This document shows, piece after piece, positions 1,438 through 6,348 of a stretch of 58,836 nucleotides of DNA. Both the position numbers and the translations under genes were made by a program. Positions within the stretch are counted from its first letter, which is position 1. Every line of letters begins with the position of its first letter. The DNA lies in the NCBI GenBank assembly GCA_029251785.1, contig JAQXCQ010000101.1, positions 1 through 58,836 of the forward strand. Reading direction: 5' to 3'. The DNA is from Maricaulis sp. GTDB taxonomy: Bacteria; Pseudomonadota; Alphaproteobacteria; Caulobacterales; Maricaulaceae. Below the pieces are notes generated by a model, which saw nothing but the letters and a program-made list of their open reading frames with translations, ran no database searches and had not been told where the DNA came from.

Positions 1438-2757
1438 CTAGTTATTGTGAGGGGTGTGGTCGTTATCCGACTCATCGTCATGGTCCCAGTCTTCATCGAT
1501 TTGGGCATTATCCGACGCTTGGGCGTTGTCGCGTGCTTGAACTTCAGCATCGAGACGTTGAGCAGCACGTTGCAGTCGTAATTGCACGCGCTGAAGTTCA
1601 TTATCCATTTCGATTCTGTGAGAGTCGATTTCAATGCGCCGACGATCACGGTCGGCGTTGAATTCCATTCTTTGTCGATCCCGTTCCACCCGCTCAACAT
1701 CGCGCATTGATCGCCGCATTTCACGTTCGACACGCGCAATCTCGCGGGTGGTTTCGAGCAGAATGGCTTGCAAATCTTCGCGACTGATTCCGCTGGAATC
1801 GTTTTCCAACGCTTCACCCAAGGCTTCGAGCGCCTCCATTCGGGCGCGCTCATTGGCATGCAGATCGACATAAATACGAGATTCGGTCTCCGAACGTCGA
1901 TCGACATGAGCTTCGTTCTCTACACCAACAGCACGAAATTCAACGCTGAAGGAGTTGGGCATGGGAGGCGCGGGAGGGGCGGATATGTTTTCGCAAGCGG
2001 GTAGCTCAATGCCATCGCCAAACTCGGTTTCGCTATTGCCGCAGGCACCATCGAGGCTGTTTTTTGTCAAACCTGAAATGTCGGTGATCCGAGCGGAGGA
2101 AAAGTTCACATGCTGCAGATTGGTATGAGAAAAATTCACGTCGTCTAACACAGCTCCAACAAAGCTTGACCCTGTTAGGTCCGCACCGCGAAAGGACACA
2201 CCGGAGCCCTGGGTCTCGGTGAAATTTGCCCGTCGAATGGCCGCACCCCGGAAGTTGGTTTCGCCGAGCTCGGCGCGCAGGAAATTCGCTTGATGCAATT
2301 CTGCATCGGCGAAAACTGCTTCACTCAAATCACTCCCGATGAACGTCACGAAGACCATTCTGGTGTTACTGAAATCGGTATCAATCAATTGTGCCGACGA
2401 GAAATTTACGCGTTCAATGACTGCGCGGGAAAAATCGACATCACTCAAATCAGCGTGAGAAAATGTGACGCCAGCAAGCTCCGAGTTTTCCATGTTTGCG
2501 CTCCCAAAACGGGTCCCGCTAAACCGGCTCTCCATGATCCGTACGCCCGGTAATTCTGAGTCTTCGAAGGTTGAACCCTCAAAGTCGGCACCCACAAAAA
2601 CTGCGCCGGCCAAATTCTTGTTGGAAAAATCGCACTCCGCGCATTCTCCGCTAATTGCCAGACGGCGTTCAGGCGGCCCCCCGACAGCATATGCCGTTCC
2701 GGCCGTCAAAGCCGTCAGTAGGGCGGCGATCGCGATATGGTTGGGAAATCTTCTCAT
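1438..2757 (-). CDS. Secreted pentapeptide-repeat protein with C-terminal coiled coil
   Basis: A 439-residue protein of unknown function. The ATG at 2757 gives a clean signal peptide (MRRFPNHIAIAALLTALTAG, cleaved near AYA) and is preferred to an in-frame TTG three codons upstream. Residues about 38-230 are A(D/N)LxF-type pentapeptide repeats, which fold as a right-handed quadrilateral beta-helix. The repeat block is capped by a CAEC pair at the front and by an LTKNSLDGACG...LPAC segment at the back. From about residue 290 the protein becomes a long charged helical region rich in E, R and D, predicted to be coiled coil, ending in an acidic tail. The same cap motifs occur in the next upstream gene, so the two are tandem paralogues. 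A periplasmic location is inferred from the signal peptide and the paired cysteines. Confidence 0.8.
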   Translation of the reverse strand: MRRFPNHIAIAALLTALTAGTAYAVGGPPERRLAISGECAECDFSNKNLAGAVFVGADFEGSTFEDSELPGVRIMESRFSGTRFGSANMENSELAGVTFSHADLSDVDFSRAVIERVNFSSAQLIDTDFSNTRMVFVTFIGSDLSEAVFADAELHQANFLRAELGETNFRGAAIRRANFTETQGSGVSFRGADLTGSSFVGAVLDDVNFSHTNLQHVNFSSARITDISGLTKNSLDGACGNSETEFGDGIELPACENISAPPAPPMPNSFSVEFRAVGVENEAHVDRRSETESRIYVDLHANERARMEALEALGEALENDSSGISREDLQAILLETTREIARVEREMRRSMRDVERVERDRQRMEFNADRDRRRIEIDSHRIEMDNELQRVQLRLQRAAQRLDAEVQARDNAQASDNAQIDEDWDHDDESDNDHTPHNN

Positions 2758-2842
2758 TAAGAGCAATCGATAGGCTAGACAGTCCCAAAAAGCGACTTAA
2801 AACGCAGTAATAACCCGGTTAGTTGAACGTAATGACCAAAGT

Positions 2843-3331
2843 TTACCGACAAGAACCTATGTGGAGCCCGGACGGCAATTGGGTGCTGCGATCTCCACAT
2901 GCAGTGTCTAATTGATTTTGTGTCAGGCCCGTCGCGGACTGCATCTCCGCGCCAGAGAGATTGGCGCCGCTCATTTCAGCTCCGCTTAAGTTGGCTCCAC
3001 CAAAATGACTGCCGACAAGTATCGCATCCCTCAAATTGGTGTTCGCGAAACTGGCTCCGGTAAAACGCGCTCCAAATAAATTTGCGACGGATAGGTCTGC
3101 ACCATCAAATGTAGCATTATTCATTGTTGCCAGCGACAGATTGGCCTGACGAAGCCGAGACCGCGACACATCGATCCCAGGGAGGTTTCGATAGGATAGA
3201 TCTGCCTGAAAGAGATTGCAGTCTACGCAGGCTTGCCCGGACTGAACGCCGGCGATTTGACCGGCATCCTGTGCCATCACAGGGCCTGAAAGGGCAATCA
3301 TCAGACCGATTGCGAGTATCATCCGTGTCAT
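2843..3331 (-). CDS. Short secreted pentapeptide-repeat protein, paralogue of its neighbour
   Basis: A 162-residue protein with a signal peptide (MTRMILAIGLMIALSGPVMA). About 90 residues of pentapeptide repeats follow, of the type NLSGAEMSGANLSGAEM. The N-terminal cap CVDC and the C-terminal segment LTQNQLDTACGDRST...GLHIGSC match those of the 439-residue protein at 1438-2757, but this one lacks the coiled-coil extension. The two genes lie on the same strand 85 bp apart and may be co-transcribed. The conserved cysteines suggest disulfides that cap the beta-helix after export. Pentapeptide proteins serve varied roles, and no specific function can be read here. Confidence 0.8.
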   Translation of the reverse strand: MTRMILAIGLMIALSGPVMAQDAGQIAGVQSGQACVDCNLFQADLSYRNLPGIDVSRSRLRQANLSLATMNNATFDGADLSVANLFGARFTGASFANTNLRDAILVGSHFGGANLSGAEMSGANLSGAEMQSATGLTQNQLDTACGDRSTQLPSGLHIGSCR

Positions 3332-3399: not shown

Positions 3400-6348
3400 C
3401 TACATGACGCTTTGCGACCAACCACATGCATCGCAAAGTTGCGCACTGTCCGTACTCATAACCGTGAAGTGGCCACACTCAGAGCATGGATCGCCGGAAT
3501 ATTGGGCGATGTCGCGCGTTGGTTTGCGCCCGGCCTTGGATTCGTGGGGTGAGTTGGCTGTCGTTACCTCGTCCGACGGGTCAGCATTTGCAGGGTTACG
3601 TGATGCATCTGTGAACATCAAAATATTATCCGGCACCTGACCGCGGCTGAAGCCCTTCGAAATGTACTGGTTGGCCTGAGTGGGCGACAACTTTTCTTGC
3701 TCGACACCGTGACCAATTCCGGCTGAGCCCAGCTGTTGTGGAGAGGTTTCTGCGAGATCGTCGCGGCCAAGATAAGACACGCCAAGTTCGCGGAATAGAT
3801 AATCGAGAATTGAGGTCGCATGCTGGATCGAATCATTGCCGGTCACATCGCCGGCCGGTTCGAAACGCGTGTAAACAAAGGCATCGACAAACTCTTCCAA
3901 TGGCACGCCGTATTGCAATGCAATGGAAACAGTAATCGCAAAATTGTTCATCAAAGACCGAAAGGCGGCACCTTCTTTGTGCATGTCGATGAAAATTTCT
4001 CCTAATTCACCGTCATCAAATTCGCCTGTGTGGAGGTAAACTTTATGGCCACCAACCGTGGCTTTTTGGATATATCCCTTGCGCCGATCCGGTAATTTTC
4101 GTCGCTCTGCTGACGGCTCATCGATACGCTCGACGACTTTTTCAACGACACGTTCGACGGGAGTGGCCCGCGGAGCCGCAGCGTAATCACCCTTGTCAAA
4201 GTCGATTGCCGGCAATAGTTCGAACAATCCGGATCGGGTCCTTTCAACCGTCAAATCCCGGAGTTTCAGCTCCGCCGCGACATTCATCAATGACGCTATT
4301 TCGTCGATGGTCGAATCGCCATCCATGCTAAGCACGGTCGTGGCTGAGCCGCCGATTTGCGCTTCTAGCGCTGCGCTCATGGCCAACCTTGCCGCCGAAT
4401 TCGGAGTGTCGAATATACTGCGGATTTCAATGTTCAGCGACGGGGCCTCGTCCAAGCACTCTGCGCCGTGCGCGTGCCGGTCCGCGGCCTCCGCTTCGGC
4501 ATCGGTAAATCCGAGAGCTCGGCAGAGTGACTGGCCTTCTGTTTCGATCGTCTGCGATGACAGGCCGAGCTTGTCGCGGCAAACGCGATCTCCCAATGTC
4601 CAGCGATTAAGGGCAAACTGGACCCGGCAACCTTCTGCGATCGCGGATTCAACGCGGGCGATGGAGTCCGGCGGGCATCCTTTCTGGAGTAAACGTTCGA
4701 ATGATATTCCCGGCGCGCCGCGCAAAGAGCCATGCCCCGCCGCATGGTCCTCGGCGGCCTCAATCTGTTCAGCGGTCGCCTTGAGGCATTGAAGTCCTGA
4801 CCGGACCGAAGGTCGAAGCCGGCGTTCATCGGCGTTTTGGGTATGGGCAGTCACGATCTCTGCCTGAGGGGCGATACCAAAGCTTTCAGCGTCGAAAAGT
4901 GCCGCCAGTTCAGTCGGAACAGTCTGACTGGCAATTATAATTCCTGGTCGGGCCATCGCTGAACGCGGTGAAAAGAGATCTGACGCGTCTTGCAGCTGGG
5001 CGGCCAGACCGGAAAATCCAATTGGAAGCTCAGAGACATCAAGGTCTGGGCCCAAACCAGGAGCATTGGCTCCGAGTTCGGCGGCGATATCGCGCAAACG
5101 CAAGGTCGCCAATCGCCCAATGGCGGCGACGACAAGCCGAGCTGGATCGCTGTCATAGGCCAATCCCTGTGCCATCAACATTTCGCCAACACCGGAAAGA
5201 GAAAATATTCCAGCGATTGGATTTGACTTGCGCGCGCTCATCATTAGGCCCGTTGCCCAATAGGTTATTGCATCACTGAACAAGTCATCGCGAAAACCGG
5301 TTTCGGGATCGAGAAATGCCGGCAAATTGAAAAATAGCGTGGGGCCCTGAGCTCCCGGGCTGTTTCGGAATGCCAGGCTTGGACTGCCAAAGCTCCAGAT
5401 AGATCGCGAGATATCATTCCAGTATTGGCGTGCACGAACAGAGCCGCCATCGCGTCCGAAGCTCCAGGATTGGTCATTGTTCACCGCAGGCGGCAAGTCG
5501 GGTGAAATGTGTAAAACCGTTTGGGCCTGCTCGCTTTCGTCCGACGACAAACAGAGCAAAGACTCATCCTGAATTCCTTGCCGCGCGAGGGCGAGGGCTC
5601 GCTCGACAGCCTGTTCGGTAACGCCATCTCTTAGCGCTAAGCGCATCGCCCTTGCCAGAGCAGCATTGCGTCGTGGGTCAAAGCGGTCGCTCTCGTCGCC
5701 CGAGCAGCGTTCGCAGGCGTCGCCGATGGCCTGCAGCCGGTCTCGGGTTACGCGCGCTCCGGTCTCGAGCACTGATGCCTTCAGTGCTGCTTCTTTAACC
5801 TTTACCAAGTCGTCCGGCGCGGTGGTACTTGTGCTCTTTATTTGGCGGGAAAGTTGGACGGCCGTGTCGACGCTGACGGTGTCGCCATAGGCCCAGTCCA
5901 CGCCGGCATTGCTCCATAATGATGCATGGGGGACAACAAACCGACCGAGTAGGCTGGCCGATAATTCGCCGCGAAACTGAACGGCATCCTTGCCTTTGTC
6001 GAACGCTCCCTGCCGGGCGGCGTTCCAGGCGAGGGAACCAGAGATGCGTGCGATCGCGACGTCCAGGCCGGACTCGACACTTCTGGCGGTTCCATCCGCT
6101 ATTTTAGGCGCGAGTCCGGCAAACGGCTTTAGGCCGGTCTTGAGGCGCGTCGAGATTGGTCGGGGCGAATCGAGCAGCCGGGCAAGCGCTGTCGCAGCGG
6201 TGTCGCTCCAAGCCTTTGGCACGTTGATCTCACGTGGCTCAATCGCCTGATCTGTATCGTCGTGCCGGAACTCCACCGACCTGGTCTCCAGATGATAAAT
6301 CTCACCCATTGCCGAAATTGCTTCGGCGAAACGACACGTCACATTCAT
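3400..6348 (-). CDS. Degenerate class II ribonucleotide reductase homologue (TSCPD protein, probable pseudoenzyme)
   Basis: A 982-residue protein collinear with alphaproteobacterial NrdJ (about 1,200 residues) but apparently inactive. The ATG at 6348 follows a GAGGGA Shine-Dalgarno and matches the family's N terminus. Recognisable blocks in order are LWSNAGVDWAYG (about 142-153, family SPQWFNTGLHWAYG), DRFDPRRNAAL, FFNLPAFLD (about 337), GEMLMAQGLAYDSD (about 385), AAGHGSLRGAPGI (about 533), a well-preserved TSCPD domain (about 750-860) and a C-terminal zinc ribbon with C955, C958, C972 and C975. The NPCSE loop with the radical Cys, the CNLASLN segment, the SGQNSNNSVRV block and the APTGT phosphate loop are deleted or unrecognisable. 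The frame is open throughout, so it is not a decayed pseudogene. A genuine NrdJ or NrdAB should be elsewhere in the genome. A regulatory or structural role is inferred only. Confidence 0.8.
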   Translation of the reverse strand: MNVTCRFAEAISAMGEIYHLETRSVEFRHDDTDQAIEPREINVPKAWSDTAATALARLLDSPRPISTRLKTGLKPFAGLAPKIADGTARSVESGLDVAIARISGSLAWNAARQGAFDKGKDAVQFRGELSASLLGRFVVPHASLWSNAGVDWAYGDTVSVDTAVQLSRQIKSTSTTAPDDLVKVKEAALKASVLETGARVTRDRLQAIGDACERCSGDESDRFDPRRNAALARAMRLALRDGVTEQAVERALALARQGIQDESLLCLSSDESEQAQTVLHISPDLPPAVNNDQSWSFGRDGGSVRARQYWNDISRSIWSFGSPSLAFRNSPGAQGPTLFFNLPAFLDPETGFRDDLFSDAITYWATGLMMSARKSNPIAGIFSLSGVGEMLMAQGLAYDSDPARLVVAAIGRLATLRLRDIAAELGANAPGLGPDLDVSELPIGFSGLAAQLQDASDLFSPRSAMARPGIIIASQTVPTELAALFDAESFGIAPQAEIVTAHTQNADERRLRPSVRSGLQCLKATAEQIEAAEDHAAGHGSLRGAPGISFERLLQKGCPPDSIARVESAIAEGCRVQFALNRWTLGDRVCRDKLGLSSQTIETEGQSLCRALGFTDAEAEAADRHAHGAECLDEAPSLNIEIRSIFDTPNSAARLAMSAALEAQIGGSATTVLSMDGDSTIDEIASLMNVAAELKLRDLTVERTRSGLFELLPAIDFDKGDYAAAPRATPVERVVEKVVERIDEPSAERRKLPDRRKGYIQKATVGGHKVYLHTGEFDDGELGEIFIDMHKEGAAFRSLMNNFAITVSIALQYGVPLEEFVDAFVYTRFEPAGDVTGNDSIQHATSILDYLFRELGVSYLGRDDLAETSPQQLGSAGIGHGVEQEKLSPTQANQYISKGFSRGQVPDNILMFTDASRNPANADPSDEVTTANSPHESKAGRKPTRDIAQYSGDPCSECGHFTVMSTDSAQLCDACGWSQSVM

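Follow-up and report, generated by a model that had tools for sequence, protein, structure and literature searches.

A class II ribonucleotide reductase homologue of Maricaulis that has probably lost catalysis and retained its TSCPD domain

A gene on the minus strand of contig JAQXCQ010000101.1 of Maricaulis sp. (assembly GCA_029251785.1) raises the question why a protein should keep the length and the tail of a B12-dependent, class II ribonucleotide reductase when the motifs of the active site are gone. Here, the whole stretch of 58,836 nucleotides that was analysed is called the window. An original prediction, made from the letters of the window, had described the gene as a homologue of the reductase NrdJ stripped of its catalytic motifs and had proposed that selection kept the fold without chemistry, possibly as a regulator or partner of the active reductase or as a nucleotide or cobalamin sensor. 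With a probability of roughly 0.7, the protein is a pseudo-reductase, that is an inherited reductase of the NrdJd type whose catalytic function disappeared at the original locus, while selection maintains the gene for a task other than catalysis, with the TSCPD domain at its centre.

Lost active site and retained tail

The frame runs over 982 codons without interruption, from an ATG at 6348 to a stop at 3400–3402, as had been claimed. Homology along the length was likewise confirmed: the NCBIfam model NF005736 (PRK07562), which describes B12-dependent reductases as they occur in Alphaproteobacteria, matches the whole window protein in four stretches (E 7.1e-146). The score of 487.6 bits stays far below the cut-off of 1737. 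The sole Pfam model that passes its cut-off is TSCPD (PF12637; E 2.8e-12, 47.2 bits, cut-off 22.8), and the protein lies below the Pfam cut-offs for both the reductase barrel (PF02867) and the class II N-terminus (PF08471). Homologues of nearly the whole length with 54–59% identity were found in 17 of the 18 other genomes of the genus that were searched, the remaining one (G008) having a frame of 175 amino acids only. When the full-length protein was modelled (30 rows; mean predicted local distance difference test score, pLDDT, 70.9), the barrel came out well and the tail badly. The parts of the gene are the following:

3400–6348, minus strand: NrdJd homologue, very probably dead (pseudo-reductase), 982 amino acids
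5874–5875 (approximate), minus strand: junction after residue 158, lacking some 100 residues that active NrdJd has (gap over reference residues 192–293)
5563–5787, minus strand: helical insertion domain, residues 188–262 (identity, helices of the model and alignment to R. sphaeroides NrdJ, 7b9q)
5349–5350 (approximate), minus strand: junction after residue 333, at which the finger loop of the radical cysteine (NPCSE) is absent (gap over reference residues 483–507)
3748–4104, minus strand: TSCPD block, residues 749–867, 119 residues, near invariant (Pfam match at 3784–4068)
3409–3507, minus strand: zinc ribbon, residues 948–980, with Cys 955, 958, 972 and 975 (alignment; roles of the cysteines after PMC5704485)

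The losses were followed in an alignment of 52 such copies, the window protein included and called dead rows hereafter, with nine active NrdJd of the same order. In all 52, the column of the first active-site cysteine is a gap, as are the N, C and E columns of the radical loop NPCSE and the Q column of GQNSNN. The second active-site cysteine (TACNLAS), the T of APTGT and both cysteines of CATPCGR are present in 0/52, and the residues that survive singly are the Cys of MDCDTTG (5/52), the G of APTGT (9/52) and the D of YRDGSK (4/52). Eight further dead copies that were read possess TSCPD and four tail cysteines, and neither NPC[GS]E nor APTGT. The large deletions recur at similar places across the dead rows: among the 24 rows listed, the first gap extends from about 172–192 to 272–312 of the reference (one row being split) and the second from 475–483 to 501–508. 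In family f1 the first gap is 192–293 in all 11 rows listed (f and g codes are family and genus labels within the genome set). The loss of NPCSE, GQNSNN and APTGT had been described correctly; the CNLASLN segment, counted among the losses as well, is partly left as the hydrophobic strand 'FNLPAF'. The stretch absent at the first junction contains, by alignment, the first active-site cysteine and, as we take it, also allosteric loops 1 and 2, which makes the suggested nucleotide sensor, if based on the specificity site, unlikely.

The four zinc ligands are the only cysteine columns filled in 52/52 dead rows, the next best being C215 of the insertion (37/52), and therefore neither a hidden active site nor an alternative trio of active-site cysteines is seen. 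Judged from these columns, the window gene very probably encodes a dead enzyme.

What remains is conserved to very different degrees. Within the genus, mean identity amounts to 0.97 in TSCPD, 0.83 in both the insertion and the linker, 0.66 in the zinc ribbon and 0.44–0.63 in the other barrel segments. The values between the genus and active copies are 0.86 (TSCPD), 0.47 (zinc ribbon), 0.44 (insertion), 0.39 (linker) and 0.07–0.30 (other barrel), and those among active copies are 0.87 for TSCPD, 0.75 for the allosteric-loop region and the zinc ribbon, 0.59 for the insertion and 0.58 for the linker. Measured against the barrel half that precedes it, the TSCPD block reaches an identity of 0.970 versus 0.674 within the genus and of 0.845 versus 0.279 between dead and active forms. 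Since TSCPD ranks first in dead and active proteins, the change consists in the insertion and the linker overtaking the catalytic parts. TSCPD and the zinc ribbon had been named as the best preserved parts, which holds for TSCPD and for the four zinc cysteines, kept in 52/52 dead rows; the insertion at residues 188–262, second best, had gone unmentioned.

The ratio of nonsynonymous to synonymous substitution rates (dN/dS) of the whole gene lies between 0.05 and 0.24 in 14 pairs of dead genes, far below 1, these being rough figures from a simple count (NG86) in pairs picked for closeness, several of them with dS above 1. By part, the same pairs gave 0.06–0.26 for the barrel and 0–0.04 for TSCPD. 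As controls, eight NrdA pairs gave 0.02–0.07, and four pairs of active NrdJd gave 0.054, 0.089, 0.255 and, in one case, a saturated dS, with 0.01–0.05 for their TSCPD. Together with the retention throughout the order, these ratios bear out the idea of a fold kept without chemistry, a pattern opposite to decay. By these measures the dead gene is under selection and not decaying, with the strongest constraint in TSCPD. Lost catalytic residues and purifying selection, the two marks of a pseudoenzyme, are thus both found in the family of the window gene.

Distribution and origin of the dead form

The order was represented by 101 genomes, the source genome and 100 relatives. The dead form is carried by 61 of them (52 aligned, eight more read, and G008 with the 175-residue frame only), the active NrdJd type by 33 (by frame, PF08471 or PF02867) and neither form by seven, two of which (G049, G057) are incomplete or contaminated drafts. 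Both forms in one genome were not seen among the 101. NPCSE and APTGTI are both present in each of the 18 active copies that were read, and named records of Robiginitomaculum and Hellea hold active copies, too. PF08471 does not cleanly divide the two forms, as the dead protein of G001 scores 29.9 bits and the fragment of G008 27.6 at a cut-off of 27; active copies shown for the order reach 83–142 bits on the main match. Among the matches listed, frames of f5 have at least 1196 amino acids and those of f2–f4 at most 1056, with a single exception of 1188 in f4. Of 199 genomes of the order that are 95% complete or better, 188 possess the TSCPD block in a dead or an active protein.

Two observations stand beside this distribution. 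In genus g9, all seven sampled genomes (G026, G042, G053, G291, G300, G309, G350) are without the TSCPD block. Furthermore, G019 (L270, G019:C1:1103500-1110500), one of the 33 genomes counted as active, encodes a protein of the NrdJd type with 902 amino acids, PF08471, NPCxE, APTGT and six tail cysteines. TSCPD gave no match in it, so that it mirrors the dead form.

Within a class sample of 153 genomes, the TSCPD block was found in 100. Apart from the source genome, 94 of these have frames of at least 1141 amino acids and five have short ones. Two of the five are small-genome alphaproteobacteria (the L265/L266 pair): G107 (93% complete) has TSCPD and a four-cysteine zinc ribbon in 282 amino acids, and G182 has TSCPD without the ribbon in 278, in a frame lying between what we take to be accC and aspS. 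G231 and G121, which belong to one genus, encode stripped proteins of 565 and 530 amino acids, and G183 (97% complete with 10% contamination) one of 667. If a weak match inside the G183 protein is set aside, the sole PF02867 gene in these genomes has the size of NrdA (620–652 amino acids), and therefore the five hardly resemble pairs of a split NrdJa and NrdJb. Stripped TSCPD proteins thus occur in four other alphaproteobacterial families, although the number of events may be smaller than five. A TSCPD tree did not reject a single clade made up of the dead and stripped rows that were used (p 0.378); the independence of the four outside lineages would rest on their different families and shapes.

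The surroundings of the gene bear on its descent. The neighbours in the window are presumably aat and accC upstream and aspS downstream; NDUFA12 and the pentapeptide-repeat proteins are named by Pfam, the latter being:

2843–3331, minus strand: pentapeptide-repeat protein directly downstream of the dead gene (Pfam PF00805, 3.3e-22)
1438–2766, minus strand: second pentapeptide-repeat protein (Pfam PF00805, 8.9e-38)

Within the stretches fetched, the nearer pentapeptide protein has a homologue in 45/51 other dead loci and in 14/18 active ones. Homologues of the window neighbours on both sides are found in 45/51 other dead loci and in six of the 18 active loci (G034, G021, G064, G088, G023, G043), while in eight others of the active loci the pentapeptide gene is found by itself or with aspS or NDUFA12, and four have none. 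Because this neighbourhood is common to dead loci and some active NrdJd loci, the dead gene seems to be an NrdJd that was stripped in place. Homology over the length and the common neighbourhood assign it to the NrdJd lineage by descent, not by function.

A tree of the C-terminal part unites the 52 dead rows with an SH-aLRT (approximate likelihood-ratio test) support of 95, family f1 as one clade is rejected by the approximately unbiased (AU) test (p 0.0016), and the recurring places of the large deletions point the same way. By contrast, a tree built from TSCPD alone gives no resolution, and neither a clade of f1 (p 0.579) nor one of the dead rows together (p 0.594) is rejected by it. In the NrdA tree, the dead genera of f1 nest inside f1 (support 81), and all dead as one clade is not rejected (p 0.363). 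On balance, the dead form more probably arose once, followed by mixing or by reciprocal loss. Several losses within the order would be a less probable alternative, and long branches may pull the dead rows together.

Proposed role and competing explanations

What could such a protein do? In the proposed course of events, a vertically inherited class II NrdJd would have lost catalysis in place, and the job of its C-terminal TSCPD domain would have been retained; that the retained job is centred on this domain appears likely. The remnant barrel and the insertion would serve as a scaffold, and TSCPD with the zinc ribbon may be the binding and oligomerising part, as in the tail of active NrdJd with deoxyadenosine or deoxyguanosine triphosphate (dATP or dGTP). 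TSCPD probably corresponds, by its place, to the IscU-like domain that precedes the zinc finger in class II tails (PMC9669993); a role of the long C-terminal domain of many class II reductases was unreported according to this 2022 paper. For S. nassauensis NrdJd, the tail has been described to mediate tetramers and hexamers induced by dATP and dGTP (PMC5704485). This is the nearest published property, and our guess is therefore a purine-deoxynucleotide-responsive assembly or regulatory factor in the supply of deoxynucleoside triphosphates (dNTPs).

The class I reductase NrdAB of the same cell would be the first candidate partner, as the sole reductase found in the genome and one without an ATP-cone, although this guess is doubtful. 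The PF02867 search of the source genome revealed one reductase gene, at C208, which is NrdA (631 amino acids; 1017.6 bits with NF006577, whose cut-off is 620). NrdB lies little over 1 kb away on the same strand (PF00268, 259 bits), and an ATP-cone at E ≤ 0.01 was found in neither protein. The other reductase that a dead enzyme would call for is hence present.

Several points weigh against the proposed role. A TSCPD match is lacking in 11/199 order genomes (seven of genus g9, three of g21, and G019) and in 53/153 class genomes; the domain is dispensable in some lineages and therefore not required in every cell in which a class I reductase works alone. TSCPD is the best conserved part of active enzymes as well (0.87), and conservation alone does not tell the job. 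PF02867 matches occur in 101/101 order genomes, with dead, active or no NrdJd, and the co-occurrence of NrdA therefore says nothing about a partner. The IscU-like fold is unconfirmed: for the model of the tail (mean pLDDT 62.8) Foldseek found no PDB match at E ≤ 0.001, and a sequence search with the tail (window 3403–4116) against the PDB yielded no more than two matches, both at chance level and both to the zinc ribbon (E 5.1 and 8.7). An NrdR-box pattern, with up to two mismatches allowed, has no match in the window; the nrdA locus (L002) has one two-mismatch site, a number reached by 21/200 shuffles. Any partner or ligand named for the dead protein is a guess. Furthermore, the window gave no Rfam match at the gathering score, be it to a B12 riboswitch or to any other RNA.

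The strongest competitor is a TSCPD job unrelated to dNTP supply, such as the binding of nucleic acid or protein via the basic RRKLPDRRKGYIQK stretch, which is a serious possibility if a less probable one. It would fit the conservation of the block whether or not the enzyme is active, and the occurrence of the domain almost alone in G107 and G182. For such a job, too, no partner or ligand is known, and none of the present results separates it from a role in dNTP supply.

Far less probable is the original suggestion that the protein assists or controls an intact NrdJ of its own cell. An extra PF02867 match of 394–418 bits is present in 12/61 dead-bearing genomes, and these genes we take to be NrdJ of another subclass; the one that was read, in a dead-bearing Maricaulis (L184, G003:C18:67000-72000), shows NPCGE and APTGT. 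However, it has a cysteine-rich tail of its own, and 49/61 dead-bearing genomes, the source genome among them, are without an extra gene. No other NrdJ, NrdJa included, was found in the source genome by the PF02867 search (genome 94.96% complete).

It is very unlikely that the protein acts like NrdJb as an electron donor in trans for another reductase. A tail of the NrdJb type is kept, and the separate tail of the split P. aeruginosa enzyme performs thiol-disulfide exchange (PMC4520616). In S. nassauensis NrdJd, Cys-920, 923, 936 and 939 have been proposed as zinc ligands, three of four exchanges lowering zinc, and Cys-933 and Cys-945 as the redox pair; when each of the six was exchanged for Ala, no variant was active with tris(2-carboxyethyl)phosphine (TCEP) as reductant (PMC5704485). 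At the positions of this redox pair, a cysteine is present in 0/52 dead rows, and A969 and V981 take its place in the window protein. The tail has four cysteines in 52/52 dead rows versus six in 18/18 active copies of the order, and among 80 named loci four were counted in 3/3 dead and six in 76/77 active ones, the sole exception being a tail cut by a contig end. The notion that the kept tail serves regeneration has therefore to be reversed: the redox pair is lost and the zinc cysteines stay.

An iron-sulphur cluster scaffold, for which the IscU-like fold reported for class II tails would speak (PMC9669993), is just as unlikely, the window protein having no cysteine between residues 631 and 955, the whole TSCPD block included. 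A still active reductase with its active-site cysteines elsewhere is scarcely credible: full-length homology and the predicted barrel, with R. sphaeroides NrdJ 7b9p as the best PDB match of the whole model (E 5.1e-29, TM 0.52/0.56, though at a root mean square deviation of 11.4 Å), stand against cysteine columns filled by the zinc ligands alone and gaps at the first cysteine, the radical loop and GQNSNN. Equally, a decaying pseudogene that is open by chance would account for the diverged barrel (0.07–0.30 outside insertion, linker and tail) but hardly, unless the 14 pairs picked for closeness mislead, for the low dN/dS, the long open frames of 60 dead homologues read or the TSCPD block kept across the order, active-form lineages included.

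The pseudo-reductase resembles several known systems. Inactive R1 homologues of betaherpesviruses have the fold of the reductase large subunit, lost catalysis and took over a regulatory job; they differ in being viral, of class I origin and directed at other targets. Stand-alone TSCPD proteins (presumably TIGR03905-like) share a TSCPD domain without reductase chemistry, but carry a cysteine-containing TSCPD motif, whereas the block of the window protein has no cysteine. With alphaproteobacterial NrdJd (NF005736; R. sphaeroides 7b9p/7b9q) the dead form shares the domain order, the insertion, TSCPD, the zinc ribbon and sometimes the neighbourhood; it lacks the first cysteine, the radical loop, GQNSNN and APTGT and has four instead of six tail cysteines. 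The NrdJb of the split P. aeruginosa enzyme is similar as an IscU-like and zinc-finger unit outside the active catalytic chain (PMC9669993, PMC4520616). In contrast to NrdJb, the dead form is without the redox pair and still fused to a dead barrel, and no NrdJa was found in its genome.

Meaning for Caulobacter and for class II reductases

In the open-access literature searched, a class II reductase described as dead was not found, and the word 'inactive' had no match in the accessible parts of PMC9531940 and PMC9669993. In C. vibrioides, one of 14 named control genomes, TSCPD passes its cut-off and PF08471 has no match, and an NF005736 match stays below the cut-off. From these family searches, the Caulobacter gene called NrdJ (CCNA_01966) is probably the dead form. 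It has been shown as NrdJ in the nucleotide-reduction pathway (PMC6538847) and annotated as a B12-dependent reductase (PMC5869019). If CCNA_01966 is dead, the drawing of Caulobacter nucleotide metabolism could change, and within this order the name of the gene would be no safe ground for predicting B12-dependent DNA synthesis.

Nature would here have removed the enzyme and kept the domain, which opens the job of the domain to study apart from catalysis. The chances are about even that the TSCPD or IscU-like domain of class II reductases serves the cell in a way independent of ribonucleotide reduction, that this service was strong enough for several alphaproteobacterial lineages to strip the enzyme around the domain and yet keep it, and that the gene of Caulobacter and its kin is no enzyme but does this job alone.

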